From assembly GCA_947303855.1 (NCBI GenBank), contig CAMYZO010000031.1, positions 1 through 34,397 of the forward strand: 34,397 nt of DNA, in the 5' to 3' direction. The notes under the pieces were generated by a model that saw only the letters and a list, made by a program, of their open reading frames with translations, made no database searches and was not told where the DNA came from. The DNA comes from an uncultured Prevotellaceae bacterium. Its GTDB lineage: Bacteria > Bacteroidota > Bacteroidia > Bacteroidales > Bacteroidaceae. Numbering within the stretch: position 1 is the first letter of the stretch; each line of letters begins with the position of its first letter. This document shows, piece after piece, positions 221-30,905 of this stretch. Both the position numbers and the translations under genes were made by a program.

Positions 221-1789
221 TTACACCCCTCTCTCTGCCCAGTCGCCGCGGTCAAGATTGCGGTAGCCGATGGCTTCGGCGATGTGCTGCGTCTGCACTT
301 TCTCCGAGCCTTCGAGGTCGGCGATGGTGCGGGCCACCTTCAGGATGCGACTGTAGGCACGGGCAGAGAGTTTCAGGCGTTCCATCGCTATACGGAGCAT
401 GTCGAGGCTCTGAGCATCGGGCTCGGCAAACTGATGGAGCATCTTCTCCGTCATCTGGGCGTTGCAGTGGATAGCCCCCCTCGGTCCCCCCGAAGGGGGG
501 AGGTTACTGAAGCGCTTCGTCTGGATGTTTCGCGCCTTGATGACGCGTTCACGGATTTTTTCTGACGGCTCGCCGGGCTGCATCTGACTCAACTGGGCAA
601 AGGGCACCGCTTGGATTTCGCAGTGGATATCGATGCGGTCGAGCAGAGGACCCGAGATCTTGTTCATATATCTTTGAATCTGGCCAGGGGTGCAGACGCA
701 GTGGTGGGTGGGGTCGCCATAGTAGCCGCAGGGACAGGGGTTCATGCTTGCCACGAGCATGAAGGAGCAGGGGTACTCCACATTGTACTTGGCACGGCTG
801 ATGGTAATCTTGCGGTCTTCCAACGGCTGGCGCAGCACCTCAAGGACGCTGCGTGACAGCTCGGGCATCTCGTCGAGGAAGAGTACGCCGTTGTGGGCCA
901 GCGAGATTTCGCCCGGCTGGGGGTTGCTGCCACCGCCGACGAGAGCCACCTGCGAGATGGTGTGGTGGGGGGCACGGAAGGGACGCTGGCTGATGAGACT
1001 GGTGTCGCGGCTCAGCTTGCCTGCCACAGAGTGTATCTGCGTCGTCTCCAGGCTCTCTGCCAGCGACAAGGGCGGCAGGATGCTGGGCAGGCGCTTGGCC
1101 AGCATCGACTTGCCGGAGCCCGGCGGCCCAATCATGATGAGGTTATGGCCACCGGCGGCAGCCACCTCCAGGGCTCGCTTCACGCTCTCCTGTCCGCGGA
1201 CGTCGCTGAAGTCGAGGTCGAACTGGCCCTGCTGCTCATAGAACTCCCGGCGGGTGTCGATAACCGTCGGCTGGTAGGAGGTGTCGCCGTTGAAGAAGTT
1301 GACGACGTCCAGGAGCGTCTCCATGCCATAGATACTGACATTGTTGACGACAGCGGCCTCGCGCACGTTCTGTACAGGCACGATAAGCCCCTCATAGTGC
1401 TCGGCACGGGCCCTAATGGCGATGGGCAGAGCACCGCGGACGGGCTGCAGGCGGCCGTCCAGCCCCAGTTCGCCCACCATCATAAAGCGCGACAGTCGTG
1501 AACTGTCCACGTTACCGGCGGCTGCCAGTATGCCAACGGCCACCGGCAGGTCGTAGCCCGACCCTTCTTTCTTGATGTCGGCGGGCGCCATGTTGACCGT
1601 TATTTCCATCATAGGCATCTTGAAGCCATTGTTCACCAGGGCGGCCTTGATGCGGTCGTAGCTCTCGCGGACGGCGGTGTCGGCCAGTCCTGTCAGGTGG
1701 AACTGCACGCCACGCGACATGCTTACCTCTACGGTGACAGTGGTGACCTCAAGTCCGTTGACGGCAGCGCAATATGTTTTTACTAGCAT
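221..1789 (-). CDS. comM: YifB/ComM-family Mg-chelatase-like AAA+ ATPase
   Basis: The 522-residue protein has the full ComM layout: an N-terminal Lon-protease-like fold (residues 1-165), a Mg-chelatase-type AAA+ domain with Walker A GPPGSGKS (221-228), the FRAPHHT signature (271-277), Walker B VLFLDE (302-307), a Cys-rich loop (PCPCGYYGDPTHHCVC, 351-366) and a C-terminal helical domain. ComM is a hexameric helicase known from other bacteria to promote branch migration during integration of transformed DNA. The MLVKT start is typical of the family. One oddity: about ten residues (NLPPSGGPRG, 429-438) sit between the RF and the IHCNAQM motif that are nearly adjacent in other members. They are encoded by a GC-rich palindromic repeat, so the protein is slightly longer than usual. 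Low-complexity AT repeats precede it and no strong promoter was found. Confidence 0.95.
   Translation of the reverse strand: MLVKTYCAAVNGLEVTTVTVEVSMSRGVQFHLTGLADTAVRESYDRIKAALVNNGFKMPMMEITVNMAPADIKKEGSGYDLPVAVGILAAAGNVDSSRLSRFMMVGELGLDGRLQPVRGALPIAIRARAEHYEGLIVPVQNVREAAVVNNVSIYGMETLLDVVNFFNGDTSYQPTVIDTRREFYEQQGQFDLDFSDVRGQESVKRALEVAAAGGHNLIMIGPPGSGKSMLAKRLPSILPPLSLAESLETTQIHSVAGKLSRDTSLISQRPFRAPHHTISQVALVGGGSNPQPGEISLAHNGVLFLDEMPELSRSVLEVLRQPLEDRKITISRAKYNVEYPCSFMLVASMNPCPCGYYGDPTHHCVCTPGQIQRYMNKISGPLLDRIDIHCEIQAVPFAQLSQMQPGEPSEKIRERVIKARNIQTKRFSNLPPSGGPRGAIHCNAQMTEKMLHQFAEPDAQSLDMLRIAMERLKLSARAYSRILKVARTIADLEGSEKVQTQHIAEAIGYRNLDRGDWAERGV
475..503. repeat. GC-rich palindromic repeat (family A) inside comM
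   Basis: A six-base C/G stem around CGAA (CCCCCC-CGAA-GGGGGG, 485-500) is flanked by a second C-run at 475-480. On the minus strand this gives the same arrangement as the copies near ispF: stem-loop, short spacer, then a G-run. It stays in frame and adds about ten residues to ComM. It is more diverged from the other copies than they are from each other. Confidence 0.6.
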
Positions 1790-16716: not shown

Positions 16717-17898
16717 ATGAAGTATAGCAGCAGATGGGCGAAAGCCTTAGTAATTGTATCCTCATTATCATTTAGCGCTAATGCAACGGCCGACGATGGT
16801 GACAAGCTCAACACCTTCAACCCCGTGGAGCACGCCATCATCTCAGAGACCATCGCCCCCGATGCCCGCGCTGCCGGTATGGGCGACGTGGGTGCCGCCA
16901 CCGACCCCGACGTCAACTCCCAGTACTGGAACCCCGCCAAGTACCCATTCTGCATCAGCCGCGCCGGCGTAGCCCTGAACTACACGCCGTGGCTGCGACA
17001 GTTGGTGAACGACATCGACCTGGCTTACGTGGCGGGCTACTACCGCATTGGCGACTATTCGGCCATCTCTGGCTCGCTGCGCTACTTCTCGCTCGGTGAG
17101 GTCTATACGGACTATGGCAACAGCGACATGACCGTCAAGCCCTACGAGATGTCGATTGATGCCGCCTACTCGCTGATGCTCAGCGAGACATTCTCCATAG
17201 CCGCTGCCATCCGCTGGATCTACAGCGACCTGCGCTTCGACTATTCTGAGGACTCCAAGCCCGCCTCGGCCTTTGCTGCCGACCTGGCCATGTACTACAA
17301 TAACTATGTCATGCTGGGACAGCGCGAGTGCCAGCTGGGTCTGGGTATGAATATCCGCAATATCGGTTCCAAGATTTCGTTCTACGGCGACGAGGAGAGC
17401 CAGTTCATACCGGCTAACCTGCGTCTGGGCGCCTCGCTGATGGTGCCTGTCGACGAATACAACCGGTTCACCATCACTGCCGATGCAAACAAACTGCTGG
17501 TGCCCACCGTGCCCCGGCAGAACGAGGGCGAGAGCAACTCGGAATACCAGGACCGTGTGCGCCGCGAATACAGCGACGTAGGCTCCATCAAGGGTATCTT
17601 CCAGAGTTTCAGCGACGCCCCCGGCGGCTTCAAGGAGGAGCTGGAGGAGGTGCAGTGGTCGGTGGGTGCCGAGTATGTCTATCACGACCAGTTCTCGCTG
17701 CGTGCCGGCTATCACCATCAGGCTGAGTCGAAGGGTAACCTGAAGTACTTCACCATCGGCGGCGGCTTCCGCATGAGTGTCTTCTCGCTCGACGTGGGCT
17801 ACGTCATCTCCACGGCCCGCAGCAATCCCCTTGACCAGACCCTGCGTTTCACCCTGGCGTTCGATATGGACGGCATCAAAGATTTGTTTAGGAAGTAA
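16717..17898 (+). CDS. porV: T9SS outer-membrane shuttle protein PorV
   Basis: 393 residues with a signal peptide (ending near FSANATA) and an alternating amphipathic pattern of a FadL-like 14-strand beta-barrel. The family motif ARAAGMGDVGAATDPDVNS-QYWNPAKY lies near the N-terminus, and GSIKGIFQSFSDAPGGFKEEL marks the extracellular loop region. PorV carries T9SS substrates from the translocon to the PorU attachment complex. The stop codon is followed two bases later by a GC-rich palindromic repeat that marks the left edge of an inserted DUF559 cassette. Confidence 0.95.
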   Translation: MKYSSRWAKALVIVSSLSFSANATADDGDKLNTFNPVEHAIISETIAPDARAAGMGDVGAATDPDVNSQYWNPAKYPFCISRAGVALNYTPWLRQLVNDIDLAYVAGYYRIGDYSAISGSLRYFSLGEVYTDYGNSDMTVKPYEMSIDAAYSLMLSETFSIAAAIRWIYSDLRFDYSEDSKPASAFAADLAMYYNNYVMLGQRECQLGLGMNIRNIGSKISFYGDEESQFIPANLRLGASLMVPVDEYNRFTITADANKLLVPTVPRQNEGESNSEYQDRVRREYSDVGSIKGIFQSFSDAPGGFKEELEEVQWSVGAEYVYHDQFSLRAGYHHQAESKGNLKYFTIGGGFRMSVFSLDVGYVISTARSNPLDQTLRFTLAFDMDGIKDLFRK

Positions 17899-17900
17899 TA

Positions 17901-17933
17901 CCCACCCCCAGCCCCTCCCGTGCGGGAGGGGAG
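17901..17933 (-). repeat. Palindromic repeat family A, left border of the DUF559 cassette
   Basis: Read on the minus strand: CTCCCCTCCC, loop GCAC, GGGAGGGG, spacer CT, GGGGGTGGG. It begins two bases after the porV stop and faces away from the DUF559 gene, so with the copy at 18343-18376 it forms an inverted pair around that gene. The stem could also form a hairpin between porV and downstream genes. Confidence 0.85.
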
Positions 17934-17951
17934 TTTAAATAGCAATTTGGT

Positions 17952-18890
17952 ATGAGAAATAATAGGTTTGAGACAACGGATGCTTCTACTTATCAGTTAC
18001 TGCTGGATAAGGCAAGAGAGATGAGAAAAAATCCCACAGAGGCAGAGTCTGTTTTGTGGAGTTATTTATCTGATAATAAGTTAGGTGTCCACTTTCGCCG
18101 ACAACATCCTGTTTATGACTATATACCCGATTTCGTTAGTCTCAAGAACAAGTTGATTATTGAGATTGACGGCGGTTATCATTTTGAGGATGAACAGCCG
18201 GAAAAAGATGCTGAAAGAACAGCGTACCTGAATCAGGTTGGGTTTCTTGTCCTTCGTTTTACCAACGAACAGGTATTAGGTGATATAGATACAGTACTTG
18301 AAGAAATAACCAATGCATTAGAAGACGCTGAGGCTATCCAGACTCCCCTCCCGTATGGGAGGGGTTTGGGGGTGGGTTCCCGAGTCGGCTTCGGCTACGA
18401 CGTTCACCGCATTGTTGAGGGCCGCGAACTCTGGATGGGTGGCATCAAGATACCATTCAATCTCCCCTCCCGTTCGGGAGGGGAAGGGGGTGGGTTCGTT
18501 GGCTTTGGACTGCTTGGTCACAGCGATGCCGACGTGCTGATACATGCCATCTGCGACGCCCTGTTAGGGGCTGCCAACATGCGCGACATTGGCTACCACT
18601 TCCCCGACACGGCGGCCGAGACCGACGGCATGGACAGCAAGATAATCCTCAAGGAGACCATGGCGCTGATAGCTACGAAGGGCTACCGCTTCGTCAACCT
18701 TGACGCAACCATCTGTGCCGAGCGCCCGAAGATGAATCCTCACATCCCGCAGATGCAGCAGTGTCTCGCCGACATTATCGGTACCGACCCCGACAACGTC
18801 AGCATCAAGGCTACCACCACCGAGCGTCTCGGCTTCACCGGTCGTGAGGAGGGCATCTCGGCCTATGCCGTTGTGCTGATAGAGAAATAG
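17952..18890 (+). CDS. ispF: DUF559 (Vsr-like nuclease) domain fused to MECDP synthase IspF
   Basis: A single 312-residue frame. Residues 16-122 are a DUF559 domain (LRxN-TEAE type start REMRKNPTEAESVLW, FRRQHPVYDYIPDF, IIEIDGGYH, DAERTAYL, VLRFTNEQVL), related to Vsr and restriction-type endonucleases. Residues 131-141 are encoded by a palindromic repeat. Residues 142-312 are IspF, which cyclises CDP-methylerythritol 2-phosphate in the MEP isoprenoid pathway: metal ligands Asp150, His152 and His190 (GHSDADV), YHFPDT and TTTERLGF are intact. A second repeat inserts about 16 residues (roughly 170-186) just before the His190 loop. A GTG at 18372, seven bases after GGGAGGGG, could start IspF separately. 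Normal IspF is about 160 residues. dxr of the same pathway lies at the right edge. Confidence 0.9.
   Translation: MRNNRFETTDASTYQLLLDKAREMRKNPTEAESVLWSYLSDNKLGVHFRRQHPVYDYIPDFVSLKNKLIIEIDGGYHFEDEQPEKDAERTAYLNQVGFLVLRFTNEQVLGDIDTVLEEITNALEDAEAIQTPLPYGRGLGVGSRVGFGYDVHRIVEGRELWMGGIKIPFNLPSRSGGEGGGFVGFGLLGHSDADVLIHAICDALLGAANMRDIGYHFPDTAAETDGMDSKIILKETMALIATKGYRFVNLDATICAERPKMNPHIPQMQQCLADIIGTDPDNVSIKATTTERLGFTGREEGISAYAVVLIEK
18343..18376 (+). repeat. Palindromic repeat family A, fusion joint of DUF559 and IspF
   Basis: CTCCCCTCCC, loop GTAT, GGGAGGGG, spacer TTT, GGGGGTGGG. It is translated as TPLPYGRGLGVG and joins the DUF559 domain to IspF in frame. Its GGGAGGGG-N7-GTG could also act as a start site for IspF alone, although Bacteroidota seldom rely on such sequences. 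Confidence 0.85.
18462..18494 (+). repeat. Palindromic repeat family A inserted in frame within ispF
   Basis: CTCCCCTCCC, loop GTTC, GGGAGGGG, spacer AA, GGGGGTGGG. Translated as LPSRSGGEGGG. IspF proteins normally pass from IP(Y/H)xKG directly to LLGHSDADV; here about 16 residues intervene. The reading frame is kept. Confidence 0.85.
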
Positions 18891-18903
18891 ACCATTGTTG
18901 TTT

Positions 18904-18930
18904 GACACAGGGGGACAGACCCCGTGTGTC
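18904..18930. repeat. Palindromic repeat family B, copy 1
   Basis: A 27-base imperfect palindrome, arms GACACAGGGG and CCCCGTGTGTC around GACAGA-type centre, 13 bases after the ispF stop. An identical 27-mer occurs at 20678-20704. It resembles the GACACAGGGG...GTGTC repeats linked with REP-associated tyrosine transposases in many bacteria (from memory). It could act as a terminator hairpin between the convergent ispF and ATPase genes. Confidence 0.75.
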
Positions 18931-18958: not shown

Positions 18959-20386
18959 TTACGTTTCAAATAATCCGTCCAGCCCCACTTGGCTCTGTAT
19001 CATCTCTGCGTATTTCCCGGGGGCTATGCCTTCTGTGGTAATCATCGTCAGCCAGGGAGTATGGCGAAGCCCTGTTTCTTGGATAAAGGCATTCTTGCGC
19101 TTGCACATCTTGTCGTATTCTTCCTTTTCCAGTTTATACGCTTCCTGACTGTATTTCACCTCACAGATGTTGACAATCCTGTCAGCCCGCTCAATGATGA
19201 TATCTATCTGGGCAGCGGGTGTTGTCGTCCTGCTTCGCCAGGAATAGCTGAGCGTAGATATGGCATCTATGCGCAAGGCGTGCTTAATCTGTTGGATGTG
19301 GGCCATGCAAATCTGTTCGTATGTGAGCCCCATCCACGCGTTGACTTCAGGTGTGTTGATATGGTGTGCCCAGTATTGCAGTTCCACCTCTGCCCTGTCA
19401 ATAAAGGTAAGGTAGAACAGACTGAAGAAATCGCAAAGCTGGTAAATGGCGTCTTTCCGCTTGATTTCCTTCTCACGGACGATATTCTTACGTATCAGGT
19501 CACACCATACCAGGTCTTCCAGCCGCTTCCCCAGATGCCCGTTGTTTGCACACTTCAGCACCCCTGCAAGTTCCTCGCGCGTCAGACCTCTGCGGCTTTT
19601 GCTCAACGCCTTGACGATGTCGATGTATTTATCGGGATTCTTGTATAACGTGTTGAAAAGCCGGCGAAACTCGCGGCGCATCTGCATGTCCTGGCTGAAA
19701 AACAGGCGGTCAACATTCTGTACCAGACTTTCTTCATGATCCAACAGACTCAGATAATACGGTATGCCGCCAAAGACCATATAAGCCTGAAGTATCATCT
19801 GGCGGCTCCATACGAACCGTTTGTCATCAAGATATTCCTCTGCCTCTTTGAGCGTAAAGGGATGAATGGGCATTTCAACGGTGATGCGGTCGTGCAGTCC
19901 ACCCTTACTGTCAATCACATTGGTTATCATCCAACTGGTGGCACTGCCACAGATAATAAGCACTATGTTATCGTATTGGCTGGCCCAGTTGTTCCAGAAA
20001 TAACCAACGGCACTGGCTACGTTCGAGCCTTCAACGTCCATGGCAGGCAATTCATCGATAAATATGACACAACGTTCGCCACTGCTCACTTTCTGCTTCA
20101 GTGCATTTTTCAGCATGATAAAAGCCGTCATCCAGTCTTTTGGCTGCTCAGACATGCCGTAGCCGTAATCATACATCGCGTCGGCAAATGCCGTGAACTG
20201 GTCTTTCTGTGTTCCTTCGATAACGCCAGTCATTTTAAACGCGAACTGGTTTTTGAAAAACTGATGAACCAGGAATGTTTTGCCTACACGCCTGCGGCCG
20301 TAAAGTGCTATAAACTCGGCGCGCGCGCTATTGACTGCTGCCGTCAGTCTTTTCATTTCCACTTGTCTTCCAATAATAGTTTCCAT
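18959..20386 (-). CDS. AAA-family ATPase with C-terminal DUF234 nuclease-like domain
   Basis: 475 residues from the METIIGRQ start. That start was chosen because a promoter lies just upstream and would place a longer N-terminus before the transcript. Residues 1-210 are an archaeal-type STAND/AAA ATPase: Walker A YGRRRVGKTF (about 29-38), Walker B CVIFIDELP. A winged-helix region follows (SRRGLTREELAGVLK). The C-terminus is DUF234, with a PD-(D/E)XK-like pattern: Asp395 in AQIDIII, Glu409 and Lys411 in ICEVKY. Family members are thought to be ATP-regulated nucleases with unknown biology, common in accessory regions. The gene stands alone, convergent with ispF, and is bracketed by two identical family B repeats. 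Confidence 0.85.
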   Translation of the reverse strand: METIIGRQVEMKRLTAAVNSARAEFIALYGRRRVGKTFLVHQFFKNQFAFKMTGVIEGTQKDQFTAFADAMYDYGYGMSEQPKDWMTAFIMLKNALKQKVSSGERCVIFIDELPAMDVEGSNVASAVGYFWNNWASQYDNIVLIICGSATSWMITNVIDSKGGLHDRITVEMPIHPFTLKEAEEYLDDKRFVWSRQMILQAYMVFGGIPYYLSLLDHEESLVQNVDRLFFSQDMQMRREFRRLFNTLYKNPDKYIDIVKALSKSRRGLTREELAGVLKCANNGHLGKRLEDLVWCDLIRKNIVREKEIKRKDAIYQLCDFFSLFYLTFIDRAEVELQYWAHHINTPEVNAWMGLTYEQICMAHIQQIKHALRIDAISTLSYSWRSRTTTPAAQIDIIIERADRIVNICEVKYSQEAYKLEKEEYDKMCKRKNAFIQETGLRHTPWLTMITTEGIAPGKYAEMIQSQVGLDGLFET

Positions 20387-20410
20387 TGTAGCATGCTTCT
20401 TGATAACACC

Positions 20411-20442
20411 GCAAAAATACAACAATCTTTTGAAACAGGCAA
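20411..20442 (-). promoter_or_regulatory. Promoter of the DUF234 ATPase gene
   Basis: On the minus strand TTG (20440-20442), 20 bases, TATTTTTG (20412-20419) followed by C at 20411. Transcription would begin near 20405 and give a leader of about 18 bases before the ATG at 20386. This supports the shorter start. Confidence 0.7.
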
Positions 20443-20449
20443 GCAATTC

Positions 20450-20537
20450 GGGCGAAATCTATCTGTTTTTAGGTAGATTTCGCCCGAAATCTGTTTGTTG
20501 TGGGCGAAATCTATGGCTTTTTGGGTAGATTTCGCCC
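20450..20537. repeat. Two tandem perfect hairpins (GGGCGAAATCTA arms) upstream of the ATPase promoter
   Basis: Four alternating copies of the 12-mer GGGCGAAATCTA and its complement: 20450-20461 with 20474-20485, and 20502-20513 with 20526-20537, each pair around a 12-base loop. They end eight bases before the -33 TTG of the ATPase promoter. They could be paired operator sites, a repeat element or a hairpin block. The second hairpin also encodes the last residues and stop of the Rpn remnant. Confidence 0.85.
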
Positions 20538-20663
20538 GATCCATGAAATCCTCAGGCTCTCGTCATACTCCCGGCGTTCGTCCTTCGTCATGGAGCCCAC
20601 CTCGGCAATCTCCGACAGGCGCTTGAACACAGCATCCTGGGCCAGGAAGGGCATGCGTTTCAG
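20511..20663 (-). pseudogene. Remnant of an Rpn-family (PD-(D/E)XK) recombination-promoting nuclease
   Basis: About 50 codons remain: LKRMPFLAQDAVFKRL, SEIAEVGSMTKDERREYDESL. This matches the region near the C-terminus of Rpn/YhgA-like transposase proteins of Bacteroidota (typical text: ...DPVFxKLxEIAxxxxMTKEExxxYDxSLK). The catalytic N-terminal part is missing and the frame runs into the hairpin block, where it stops. A well-formed minus-strand promoter survives 70 bases upstream (20734-20764), separated by family B repeats that replace the deleted 5' part. Confidence 0.7.
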
Positions 20664-20664
20664 T

Positions 20665-20704
20665 GACACAGGGGGATGACACAGGGGGACAGACCCCGTG
20701 TGTC
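20665..20704. repeat. Palindromic repeat family B, copy 2 with a partial duplicate
   Basis: 20678-20704 is identical to the 27-mer at 18904-18930. It is preceded by an extra half unit GACACAGGGGGAT at 20665-20677. It lies between the surviving Rpn promoter and the truncated Rpn tail, as if insertion or recombination at the repeat had removed the gene's front part. Confidence 0.8.
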
Positions 20705-20764: not shown

Positions 20765-20993
20765 ACAAAAGATTAACTTTCTTGACAACCTTCTTCACTC
20801 ATCAAAGCGCATGCGCGCGTACAGGAAAAATTCATAAAAAGGGTGACAGGGTGACAAAACCTCCTGCCACAAAGGGTTTGCACCCTTTTTCATGGGTGCC
20901 AAGGGTGACAGAAGGGTGACAGGCTGTAATACCCTAGACAGGCTGCTTCTCAGGGTAGACGTTGCCTGTATGGCTACTCCGAAAGGCGATATA

Positions 20994-21159: not shown

Positions 21160-21195
21160 CCCCACCCCCGACCCCTCCCCTACAAGGGAGGGGAG
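21160..21195 (-). repeat. Palindromic repeat family A, solo copy
   Basis: Read on the minus strand: CTCCCCTCCC, loop, GGGAGGGG-like arm, then GGGGGTGGGG. It has the same layout as the copies at porV/ispF and lies nine bases outside the right arm of the inverted-arm element. Here it is not in a gene. Confidence 0.75.
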
Positions 21196-21313
21196 TGCCT
21201 GCGAGCCTGTCACCCTTCTGTCACCCCTGTCACCCTCTGAAAAGGGTGCAAACGCCCTGTACATCGGCGTTCTGTCACCCTTGCACCCTTTTTCACGAAA
21301 AATCCTATACAGG

Positions 21314-27668: not shown

Positions 27669-27697
27669 TAGATACCGCTTTTGGTAGTTTTTTTTCG

Positions 27698-27705
27698 TAA
27701 CTTTG
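27698..27705 (+). promoter_or_regulatory. -7 box immediately before the helicase start
   Basis: TAACTTTG ends five bases before the ATG at 27711. If it is used, transcription starts at or next to the start codon and the mRNA is almost leaderless. Confidence 0.55.
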
Positions 27706-27710
27706 CACTC

Positions 27711-30700
27711 ATGACAGTAGAGGAATTGTTTGGACGCTGCCAGGAATTGGCCGAACAGGAGCCTTCGGTGGCAGCCAACCGTTTTATGCATGAGACACTG
27801 GTGCTGTGCTGCGCCGAGGGGCTAAGGGCTGTGGGCACTGGCTTCGGTAACTTGTTTTCGCAGGTGGACTATCTGTGTAAGCACTGCGGCATGCGGACGG
27901 CAGAGCGTATGGCGGTGCAGCAGATGCGCCGGCGCTCAAACCATGTGGAGGTGTCCGACCGTCAGCAGTGGATGCAGGATGTCAGGACGCTGGCGCTGTT
28001 TGTGTCGGCAGTCTTCAAGGCAGACATCCCGGACAGTCTGGTACGCCTCATCCCGCACCATTCCGATTCCCAGCAGGCTGTGCCGACGGTGAATGCCCGC
28101 TATCTGCGCTGCATCGTCAGCGAGTGGGACGAGCGGCTGATACAGGCAGAGACGGCTGACGGCAGTCCTATAGCCATAGACTATTCGGAACATGCGTACC
28201 TGAAGAAGATGCTGCGGCAGGGCTTGCAGCTGAACCTCCTGGACTGCCATCTGACACAGGAGACGGTGACACCGGGACTGGTGGTCGTGGAGCCCGACTT
28301 CCTGGTGGACATCTCGGCCGTGGCCCGCTGTTTTCAGGCGGAGTACGGTCACCACCCGCTGCTCTATACCATTGAACGGCTGAAGCCCCGCGCCAACACA
28401 CAGGCGATACTCTTAGGAAATTTTGCCGGAGCGGCACTCGACGACATCATCAATAGCACTGCCTATGACGAGAGCGTCACAATCAACCGCTTCTTCCGGG
28501 AGCAGGCCCTGCAGTTTACGACCTGTGACGACTTCGACGCCACGCGCTTCATGACCGATGCCCGGCAGCAGTCGGCCAATATCAAGGAGGCGGTGGCGGC
28601 ACTGTTTGACAAGGACTACGACCGCCGGAAAGCCCTGCTGGAACCGTCGTTCGTCTGCGAGCGCTTGGGGCTGCAGGGACGTGTCGACCTGATGACCAGC
28701 GACATGCGGCTGCTGGTGGAGCAGAAGTCGGGCAAGAACTACGGCATAGAGCGCGGTGCTACAACCTATCATAAGGAAGACCACTACGTGCAGCTGCTGC
28801 TCTACTACGGCATCCTGCGCTATAACTTCGGACGGACGGACACGCAGGTGGACATCCGCCTGCTCTATTCACGCTATCCGGCCGCCAAAGGTCTGCTCTA
28901 CGTCAACTTCTACCGCGAGCTGTTCCGCGAGGCCATCCGTCTGCGCAACCAGATAGTGGCCACGGAGATGCTGATGGCCCGCGAGGGCTTCGGCCGCGTG
29001 CTGCCCCTGCTGAGGCCAGATGTCGTCTACCACGGTGTCAAGACCGATGACTTCTTCAAGCGCTATATGGAGCCGCCACTCCGGGCCCTTGCCGGTCAGC
29101 TGGCTGCCGCAACACCCCTTGAGCAGGCCTACTTTGAACGGATGATGACCTTCGTCTATAGCGAACAGCTGTTGCAGAAGGTGGGACGGCAGGAAGGACA
29201 GGGCGGAGCCTCCAGCGACCTGTGGAACATGCCGCTGACGGAGAAGATGGAGACGGGCAACATCATCCTCTCAGGCCAGTTCTCGCCAACGCTGAACTTC
29301 CGCCGGGGCGACATGGTCTATCTCTACAACTACGACGGCGAGGAACCCGATGCACGGCATGCCATATTATATAAAGGTACGCTCGAAGCGGTAGGCCCTG
29401 AGGGTGTCAGCGTGAAACTGAACGAAGGCGTGAGTGCCGACGAGGTGATGAGTCAGGGGCAGTGGGCCATAGAGCATGCCGGCAGCGACCTGAACACCAC
29501 AAGTGCCGTGAAGAGCCTCTACCAGTTTGTGACCGCTAATATCGACAGGAAGGCACTGCTGCTGGGGCAGCGTCCGCCGCGCCGTGACGAAACGCTCTGC
29601 CTGTCACGCAGTTATAACCCCAACTATGATGACATGCTGCTGCGCGCTAAGCAGTCTCGCGACTACTACCTGCTGGTGGGTCCGCCGGGAACGGGCAAGA
29701 CCTCGATGGCACTCCGCTACATGGTGGAAGAGGCTGAGGGCGACCTGCTGCTGATGAGCTATACGAACAGGGCCGTGGACGAAATATGCGGCATGCTCGA
29801 CGAGGCCGGGCGCGACTACCTGCGCATAGGCAACGAGACGTCATGCCATCCGAGGTTCAAGGGCCATCTGTTAGACAGCAGGCTCGGCGCCAAACCGAAG
29901 CTCAACGACATCCGGCGCCTGATTGCCGAGATGCCCATCATCGTCGGCACCACGTCGATGCTGCAGGCACGTCCGTATATCTTCCAGCTGAAACATTTCT
30001 CACTCTGCATCGTCGACGAGGCTTCACAGATTCTGGAGCCGGGACTCGTAGGACTGCTCAGCAGTCCCCGCATCAGCCGCTTCATCCTTGTAGGCGACCA
30101 TAAGCAACTGCCTGCCGTGGTGCAGCAGACGGAGCAGGAGTCGGCGGTGAACGACCCGCTGCTGACGGCTATCGGCATCACCAACTGCCGGCGCTCTCTC
30201 TTTGAAAGGCTGCTGGGCTGGGAGCAGCACTGCGGACGCACGCAGTTTACGGGCATCCTGCGCAAACAGGGCCGCATGCACCCCGACATTGCAGCCTTCC
30301 CCAACGAGATGTTCTACCGCCGCGAACAGTTAGAGCCGGTGCCGCTGGAACACCAGCTGGACACGTCGCTGCACTATGACCTGCCGTCGCAGGACAGCCT
30401 TGATGACGACCTGAAGCAGCTGCGTGTGCTCTTCCTGCATGTCAGCAAGCCCAAGAGTACGCAATTCTCTGACAAGGTGAACCCTGCCGAGGCACGGCTT
30501 GTGGCCGACCTGCTGCGCCGCATCTACCGCTTTTATGGTAACCGTTTCGACGGGCAGAAGACGGTCGGTGTGATTGTGCCCTACCGCAACCAGATAACCA
30601 TGATACGCGAGGAGATAGCACGCCTTGACCTGCCGGCACTCAGCGACATCACCATCGACACCGTTGAACGCTATCAGGGGTCGCAGCGCGATGTCATCAT

Positions 30701-30905
30701 CTACTCGTTCACCGTCAGCCGTCCCTACCAGTTGGACTTCCTGACATCGAACTGCTTTGAGGAGGACGGATGCGTGATTGACCGCAAGTTGAACGTGGCC
30801 TTGACGCGGGCACGCAAGCAACTGCTGATGACCGGAAACGCAGAAATTCTACGACAAAACCGCATTTTTGCACAGCTGATTGCACGCTATCAGAAAAAAA
30901 TGTAG
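27711..30905 (+). CDS. Dna2-like nuclease-helicase (superfamily I, Upf1/Dna2 type)
   Basis: 1064 residues from the ATG at 27711; an earlier TTG at 27681 in the same frame would overlap the -7 box and is less likely. The N-terminal half carries a Cas4/RecB-type PD-(D/E)XK pattern, GRVDLMTSDMRLLVEQKSGK (about residues 323-343). The helicase domains follow: Walker A GPPGTGKTS (about 657), YTNRAVDEI (motif Ia), Walker B LCIVDEASQI (about 766), GDHKQLPAVV (motif III), IDTVERYQGSQRDV (motif V) and LNVALTRARKQL (motif VI, about 1027). Such proteins process DNA ends or replication intermediates. The gene stands alone and is GC-rich like the core genome, so it probably marks the right edge of the accessory block. 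Confidence 0.88.
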   Translation: MTVEELFGRCQELAEQEPSVAANRFMHETLVLCCAEGLRAVGTGFGNLFSQVDYLCKHCGMRTAERMAVQQMRRRSNHVEVSDRQQWMQDVRTLALFVSAVFKADIPDSLVRLIPHHSDSQQAVPTVNARYLRCIVSEWDERLIQAETADGSPIAIDYSEHAYLKKMLRQGLQLNLLDCHLTQETVTPGLVVVEPDFLVDISAVARCFQAEYGHHPLLYTIERLKPRANTQAILLGNFAGAALDDIINSTAYDESVTINRFFREQALQFTTCDDFDATRFMTDARQQSANIKEAVAALFDKDYDRRKALLEPSFVCERLGLQGRVDLMTSDMRLLVEQKSGKNYGIERGATTYHKEDHYVQLLLYYGILRYNFGRTDTQVDIRLLYSRYPAAKGLLYVNFYRELFREAIRLRNQIVATEMLMAREGFGRVLPLLRPDVVYHGVKTDDFFKRYMEPPLRALAGQLAAATPLEQAYFERMMTFVYSEQLLQKVGRQEGQGGASSDLWNMPLTEKMETGNIILSGQFSPTLNFRRGDMVYLYNYDGEEPDARHAILYKGTLEAVGPEGVSVKLNEGVSADEVMSQGQWAIEHAGSDLNTTSAVKSLYQFVTANIDRKALLLGQRPPRRDETLCLSRSYNPNYDDMLLRAKQSRDYYLLVGPPGTGKTSMALRYMVEEAEGDLLLMSYTNRAVDEICGMLDEAGRDYLRIGNETSCHPRFKGHLLDSRLGAKPKLNDIRRLIAEMPIIVGTTSMLQARPYIFQLKHFSLCIVDEASQILEPGLVGLLSSPRISRFILVGDHKQLPAVVQQTEQESAVNDPLLTAIGITNCRRSLFERLLGWEQHCGRTQFTGILRKQGRMHPDIAAFPNEMFYRREQLEPVPLEHQLDTSLHYDLPSQDSLDDDLKQLRVLFLHVSKPKSTQFSDKVNPAEARLVADLLRRIYRFYGNRFDGQKTVGVIVPYRNQITMIREEIARLDLPALSDITIDTVERYQGSQRDVIIYSFTVSRPYQLDFLTSNCFEEDGCVIDRKLNVALTRARKQLLMTGNAEILRQNRIFAQLIARYQKKM

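Follow-up and report, generated by a model that had tools for sequence, protein, structure and literature searches.

The closest described systems to the element reported here are the REPtrons, in which a repetitive extragenic palindromic (REP) sequence is paired with a REP-associated tyrosine transposase (RAYT, also TnpA-REP) of the Y1 HUH type; in the accessible text of PMC3733652 and PMC8266576 these comprise a single palindrome-flanked, repeat-specific nuclease gene, together with inverted pairs and many dispersed copies of the repeat. The same text of PMC3733652 cites the Rickettsia palindromic elements (RPEs), which are palindromes in frame within protein genes, and CGTC repeats, a palindromic class without associated transposase genes. 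Here we describe a 478-bp unit in a 34,397-nucleotide stretch of DNA (the window) from contig C31 of an uncultured Prevotellaceae genome (3.44 Mb, 82% complete), in which a frame of the DUF559 (PF04480) nuclease family lies between inverted palindromes at the junction of porV and ispF. It probably represents a widespread type of mobile element, with a Vsr-type nuclease that would act on the palindromes at its own ends.

DUF559 elements share with REPtrons a lone nuclease gene with inverted palindromes of a repeat-specific family, and many dispersed copies of that repeat. They differ in that the enzyme is of the PD-(D/E)XK/Vsr type and not HUH, and in that they are commonly in frame with a host gene; because the enzyme is not HUH, the unit would work like a REPtron without being one. 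The arms that were read carry a G-rich tail, GGGGGTGGGT, and by eye, with no systematic scan, they have no evident GTAG or CGTC tag of the REPtron kind, nor was the tag of the CGTC-tagged REPs noticed in them. Like RPEs, as judged by description and not by sequence, DUF559 palindromes occur in frame within protein genes, although the accessible text of PMC3733652 mentions no nuclease partner for RPEs. The EDxHD/Vsr-like homing endonucleases (I-Bth0305I) differ from DUF559 elements, which have flanking palindromes and dispersed DUF559-less derivatives; no splicing domain was found around the mid-protein DUF559 inserts scanned, introns not having been searched for. Inteins were ruled out in the same way, seven whole open reading frames (ORFs) with mid-protein DUF559 containing no splicing domain (Pfam, E≤1e-6). 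Insertion sequences (IS) with terminal inverted repeats (TIRs) and miniature inverted-repeat transposable elements (MITEs) likewise have inverted ends and forms with and without a nuclease gene, but the only gene seen in DUF559 elements is a lone Vsr-type nuclease of ~125 aa, their insertion is often in frame, and no target duplication was recognised at the edges read. TnsA of Tn7 acts together with other Tns proteins, whereas the short DUF559 elements hold no Tns partner.

A sequence-only reading of the window had placed DUF559 between family A palindromes in opposite orientation at the porV-ispF junction, and both the sequence and a repeat search confirm this arrangement; the bounds that it gave, 17901..18376, were correct in location and one base short on either side (Table 1). 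The left repeat begins with its tail ACCCACCCCC outermost, followed by the palindrome CCCCTCCCGTGCGGGAGGGG at 17912-17931 and an inner part AGTTTAAATAGC. Its letters at 17900-17934 are ACCCACCCCCAGCCCCTCCCGTGCGGGAGGGGAGT, and the inverted partner closes with the tail at 18377, the G-rich tails of both palindromes facing outward around the DUF559 frame. That frame belongs to DUF559 with a profile score of 118.2 bits (E 1.9e-34, curated cut-off 20.6), and the same 312-aa open frame (17952-18890) scores 216 bits for YgbB/IspF. Read in frame, the right repeat encodes TPLPYGRGLGVG. The ATG with which ispF starts in unoccupied relatives is missing in the window copy, and the right repeat contains an in-frame GTG (18372-18374) as a possible separate start. 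The earlier claim that the right palindrome is translated and fuses DUF559 to IspF holds for the open frame; as the GTG could also start IspF alone, a fused DUF559-IspF protein is only one possible product.

Inverted repeats are a general feature of DUF559 loci. A profile search finds PF04480 in 71 of 120 genomes of the genus, and 128 of at least 150 matches, from 62 genomes, were analysed after removal of 22 rows with weak or partial hits (E 2e-20 or worse). The 400-bp left flank of each locus was locally aligned to the reverse complement of the right flank, with a threshold score of at least 30; full flanks were available for 126 of the 128 loci, and arms, orientation and read-through were assessed in the 104 elements with a score of at least 36. 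An inverted pair is present, as the sequence-only reading would require, at 111 of the 126 loci, compared with 31 of 126 when the same flanks are scored for direct repeats and 1 of 118 in a far control using flanks 1050-1450 bp out. Left and right flanks drawn from different genomes reach the threshold in 344 of 1260 combinations because the repeat families are shared. No inverted pair was found at 20 ispF loci without DUF559 (4 of 24 listed loci were too short and were dropped), and this and the far control rule out that palindromes are merely dense everywhere. An assembly artefact is unlikely, as elements are carried by the single-contig genomes G016 and G117 (3 and 5 matches listed, respectively). 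Isolates also contain DUF559 loci, that of Prevotella jejuni DSM 26989 (L202) scoring 65 and that of Prevotella sp. KH2C16 (L212) a sub-threshold 27.

The wider distribution is similar, with 30 of 48 loci from named genomes scoring at least 30 (far control 2 of 46), although this set overlaps in part with that of the genus (L198/G106 and L199/G062 look identical). Among 14 loci outside Bacteroidota or unplaced, 10 score at least 30; these include the Alphaproteobacteria Sphingomonas (4 of 5 rows) and one Erythrobacteraceae genome, as well as Rickettsiales, Helicobacter, Peribacterales and one Oscillospiraceae row. Some of these rows (L230, L235 and L239) have a direct-repeat score as high as or above the inverted score. 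An inverted pair is present at 6 of the 8 loci examined in a plasmid collection with 36 matching records, from Deinococcus (two), Sphingomonas, Picosynechococcus, Azospirillum and Qipengyuania; the Synechocystis and E. coli loci there have no inverted flanking pair. The two Deinococcus plasmids (L262 and L265) carry the DUF559 element at different junctions of one hpa catabolic gene cluster.

The palindromes also correspond to the DUF559 lineage that they flank. A quick DUF559 tree of 107 columns has two deep groups, and with the two clades taken from the deepest split the tails point inward in 15 of 16 elements of one group and outward in 84 of 88 of the other (Fisher p 1.2e-13), the four exceptions in the larger group being ties or one-base differences. 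Similarity between DUF559 proteins and similarity between arms are correlated (0.49 for 5126 pairs in which neither genome nor site is shared; 1000 permutations reach 0.18 at most). Arms are shared, with a score of at least 40, in >91% of 139 pairs with a DUF559 similarity >0.6 and in 0.4% of 944 pairs with a similarity <0.3. In 117 of 138 pairs of elements occupying the same site, the left and right arms within an element resemble each other more closely than equivalent arms do across the pair, which indicates that the ends of one element change together, a feature absent from the sequence-only reading. The DUF559 clade predicts both the sequence and the orientation of its palindromes, as expected of a cognate nuclease.

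In the source genome the pattern CCCCTCCN{2,12}GGAGGGG occurs at 82 places (of which 50 were listed) and the reversed control at none. Three PF04480 genes were found in this genome, each bracketed by inverted palindromes; that on contig C34 lies between HlyD-like and ABC-ATPase genes (both named by eye from sequence), and that on C1 precedes argC, with flanking palindromes of a different subfamily from those of the window element. Across the genus the median number of palindromes is 36.5 in the 62 genomes with full-length DUF559 and 0 in the 58 without it (p 8e-14), so that genomes without the gene do mostly lack the repeat, as the sequence-only reading would have it, with 10 exceptions among the 58. 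Where completeness is 90% or more, at least 10 palindromes are present in 27 of 30 genomes with DUF559 and in 3 of 28 without it, and palindrome number correlates with DUF559 copy number (rho 0.72). The RAYT-like role that had been suggested for DUF559 is supported by this co-occurrence and by the pairing of clade and palindrome, from which we infer that DUF559 itself may mobilise the palindromes.

The known REP-RAYT system is ruled out as the cause, as no match to the Y1 transposase (PF01797) was found in the 82% complete source genome and the presence of Y1 does not track palindrome number in the genus genomes (p 0.09 for any Y1 and 0.52 for strong matches). Y1 loci served as a positive control for the flank test and have inverted repeats of other sequence at 10 of 15 complete loci, 5 of 20 being dropped as incomplete. 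The Y1/RAYT-type genes of the genus (L244-L261) carry their own inverted repeats, for example CCCAGGGCACCGCCCTGGGT at L260, and two palindrome systems therefore coexist in the genus.

Several observations are consistent with mobility. Elements of one lineage at four sites (in G000, G105, G062 and G110) align from repeat to repeat with nothing recognisable outside, and the copies in G034 and G072 are 87% identical with flanks that do not match; terminal inverted repeats with sharp edges at different sites are a transposon-like trait. The elements are commonly 440-650 bp long and consist mostly of the DUF559 frame. In the source genome, 6 of 7 readable palindrome pairs within 250 bp are tails-out and lack DUF559. 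The leucyl-tRNA synthetase (LeuRS) gene of G043 contains two elements with near-identical linkers, of which one has DUF559 and the other lacks it; in G089 a DUF559 occupies the place of the DUF559-less element of G043, and the other G043 insert is absent. These two genes are not cleanly reciprocal empty sites, since the site used in G089 is occupied in G043 too, by an element lacking DUF559. Leucyl-tRNA synthetases L127 and L137 have in-frame DUF559 elements and extra palindrome-coded inserts. The AAA_11/AAA_12 gene of the window and its G030 homologue are 44-57% identical on either side of the insert in the latter. Relatives with an element-free ispF start, the existence of which had been anticipated, are common, 24 of 29 that were read having an ATG just ahead of the conserved protein start; there is no ATG at that position in four occupied relatives and one remnant (G092).

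The elements have a close relationship with the reading frames of their hosts. The DUF559 frame continues for at least 80 aa in 40 of the 128 matches, and in 76 of the 104 elements with clear arms the downstream frame crosses the right palindrome (28 in the reverse-strand control); these comprise 37 elements with an internal ATG for the downstream frame, 23 in which DUF559 shares that frame, 5 open on both sides, and 11 crossed with no internal ATG. This read-through, shown by most elements, had not been noted in the sequence-only reading. In 15 of the 37 the first internal ATG and the DUF559 stop codon overlap, always with an offset of -5. Frames open far on both sides, without clear arms, occur in ABC-F of G028, LeuRS of G043, DegT of G001 and an epimerase of G055. 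Among the matches analysed, gmk is occupied in 11 genomes, argC in 10 and ispF in 8; elements stand in frame at the start of these three genes, or mid-protein in LeuRS, DegT and ABC-F. Host and DUF559 identities are correlated at gmk (0.65) and ispF (0.68), suggesting inheritance there, and not at argC (0.16). Several DUF559 clades abut the same argC codon or its neighbour, so that this site is either preferred or the sole tolerated place. Site labels were assigned by us; gmk, argC, argG, purT and argB are consistent with Pfam, while by Pfam 'acyl' is AMP-binding, 'trpB' PALP, 'korB' a TPP enzyme, 'mmdA' acyl-CoA dehydrogenase and 'rapA' AAA_11/AAA_12; the 'rnhA' representative has no match at E≤1e-10, and other labels are provisional.

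The predicted structure of DUF559 (pLDDT 88) matches 3hrl (NGO0050), the homing endonuclease I-Bth0305I, and Vsr. NGO0050 is itself a strong match to the DUF559 profile, and I-Bth0305I is also matched by sequence (E 7e-8). T27, E30, D58, E69 and D71 are among the residues invariant in 35 proteins, and H75 is conserved at 90% or more (numbering of alignment A1). The model thus assigns DUF559 a predicted PD-(D/E)XK fold of the Vsr/I-Bth0305I type, with conserved acidic residues.

If DUF559 acts on the palindromic ends of its own element, the nuclease would nick or cut cognate palindromes as hairpin or duplex, and host repair would copy the element into the target; read-through and start-codon capture would allow essential genes to tolerate the insertion and would put a cost on its precise loss. 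A free-standing homing endonuclease, cutting the unoccupied host gene and being copied in by homologous repair with the palindromes only shielding or marking its ends, is an unlikely alternative account. Among functionally named folds I-Bth0305I is the closest, many genomes share the same occupied sites, and insertion site mostly follows the DUF559 tree (29 changes among 83 rows with 21 sites, without a shuffled control); yet related DUF559s are present at unrelated sites, the argC site has been reached by several clades, palindrome subfamily tracks DUF559 even across different sites, and solo palindromes and DUF559-less pairs are located elsewhere. We think it decidedly unlikely that the palindromes owe their spread to another transposase or to some replication process, with DUF559 as cargo or as a repair helper caught between two of them. 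The DUF559 frame takes up most of the element, palindrome sequence and orientation pair with DUF559 clade, and Y1/RAYT genes, the one family compared, were not found in the 82% complete source genome, do not track the palindromes and have other repeats of their own; persistence of palindromes in some genomes without full-length DUF559 is what such a passenger would lead one to expect, as is the fact that DUF559 activity is predicted only. G+C-rich hairpins can terminate transcription, and a domesticated repair nuclease flanked by terminators or regulatory hairpins would fit the repair role proposed for Caulobacter VsrA in the accessible text of PMC12907096. It is nonetheless highly improbable here, given that the downstream frame crosses the right palindrome at 76 of 104 loci, that palindromes are found inside LeuRS, DegT and IspF, and that the arms match each other by subfamily at TIR-like element edges.

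Other observations weigh against a nuclease that moves its own ends. No inverted pair reaches the threshold at 15 of the 126 loci of the genus and at 18 of the 48 in the wider set, the E. coli DUF559 locus has no flanking palindromes, and reading the element edges by eye, with no systematic test, revealed no target-site duplication. The palindrome-count statistics take no account of phylogeny; the 10 of 58 genomes that hold at least 10 palindromes without full-length DUF559 include G101 (73% complete) with 86, which fits loss, assembly gaps or another mobiliser, and 8 DUF559-positive genomes have 0-2 copies of the single pattern scanned, the arms seen in them not matching that pattern. DUF559-free pairs at other genus loci, counted within the examined loci, vary in arrangement (11 tails-out, 20 tandem, 3 tails-in and 1 unclear), so that the tails-out arrangement without DUF559 is not general. 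In 28 of the 104 elements no downstream frame crosses the right repeat (24 with no fusion and 4 open on the left side only), and site fidelity may in part be vertical inheritance at gmk and ispF, though not at argC. Finally, VsrA, itself a DUF559 protein, is a proposed repair nuclease (PMC12907096, in its accessible text).

A broader proposal, for which we see the balance as even, is that these elements are a second, independently evolved palindrome-mobilising class, in which lone Vsr-type DUF559 enzymes move their cognate ends, enter essential genes in frame, take over their start codons so that loss becomes costly, and seed DUF559-free pairs and solo palindromes, and that the same class may underlie CGTC repeats and RPEs. 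Were this so, DUF559, a domain of unknown function in several phyla, would gain a role as a mobile-element enzyme, and the design of a nuclease with a cognate palindrome would have arisen twice with unrelated enzymes. In-frame palindromes inside proteins, for which the accessible text of PMC3733652 names no mover, may then be explained, and start-codon capture and read-through would be the strategy of a non-splicing element at or inside gmk, ispF and leuS. Annotators should then treat a DUF559 'domain' in fusion with an enzyme as a probable insertion and not as a functional partner. The open-access literature searched holds no description of palindrome-bracketed DUF559 elements, and none of its papers mentioning DUF559 is on palindromic repeats by title or listing; within it the class is new, and as most subscription journals and all bioRxiv preprints lay outside the search an earlier description elsewhere is possible.

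Table 1. Features of the window related to the DUF559 element.
Feature	Position	Strand	Remarks
Whole element, 478 bp	17900..18377	+	At porV-ispF junction; edges from alignments
Left terminal inverted repeat	17900..17943	-	Boundary by alignment with element at another gene in G062
Right terminal inverted repeat	18333..18377	+	Palindrome CCCCTCCCGTATGGGAGGGG (18345-18364), tail GGGGGTGGGT
DUF559 (PF04480) nuclease-family frame	17952..18338	+	Domain 18006-18320; continues in frame into ispF
ispF (YgbB), host gene	18381..18890	+	In frame with DUF559
porV, upstream neighbour	16717..17898	+	Stops just ahead of element
Solo palindrome, subfamily of C1/argC element	475..503	-	In frame in Mg-chelatase gene
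Solo palindrome NLPSRSGGEGGGF	18462..18494	+	In frame inside IspF
Solo palindrome, CCCCTCCC subfamily	21160..21196	-	In 96-aa ORF
AAA_11/AAA_12 gene, unoccupied form	27681..30905	+	G030 homologue has in-frame DUF559 element

The window contains three further solo palindromes, as had been noted, although that in the Mg-chelatase gene is not a copy of the same repeat but belongs to another subfamily, that of the argC-linked DUF559 gene on C1, which it matches at 486-503 (Table 1). Two of the three do lie in frame within genes, as claimed, in Mg-chelatase (presumably of the ComM type) and in IspF, where the same loop has an insert in relatives G027, G041, G083 and G106. The 96-aa ORF around the third has no Pfam match at E≤1e-5, and no real gene is thus shown there.

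Other repeats in this region differ from the studied palindrome. Two hairpin-like copies of GGGCGAAATCTAT...TAGATTTCGCCC, 89% identical and 52 bp apart (20450-20539), are located by the ATPase_2/AAA_14 gene at 18959-20446, on its start side. This gene also has on either side, at 18903-18930 and 20677-20704, one copy of an exact 28-bp direct repeat, TGACACAGGGGGACAGACCCCGTGTGTC, again hairpin-like. A 90-bp inverted repeat (20836-20925 and 21204-21293; 79% complementary, 278 bp apart) encloses the third solo palindrome and may be a further short element.
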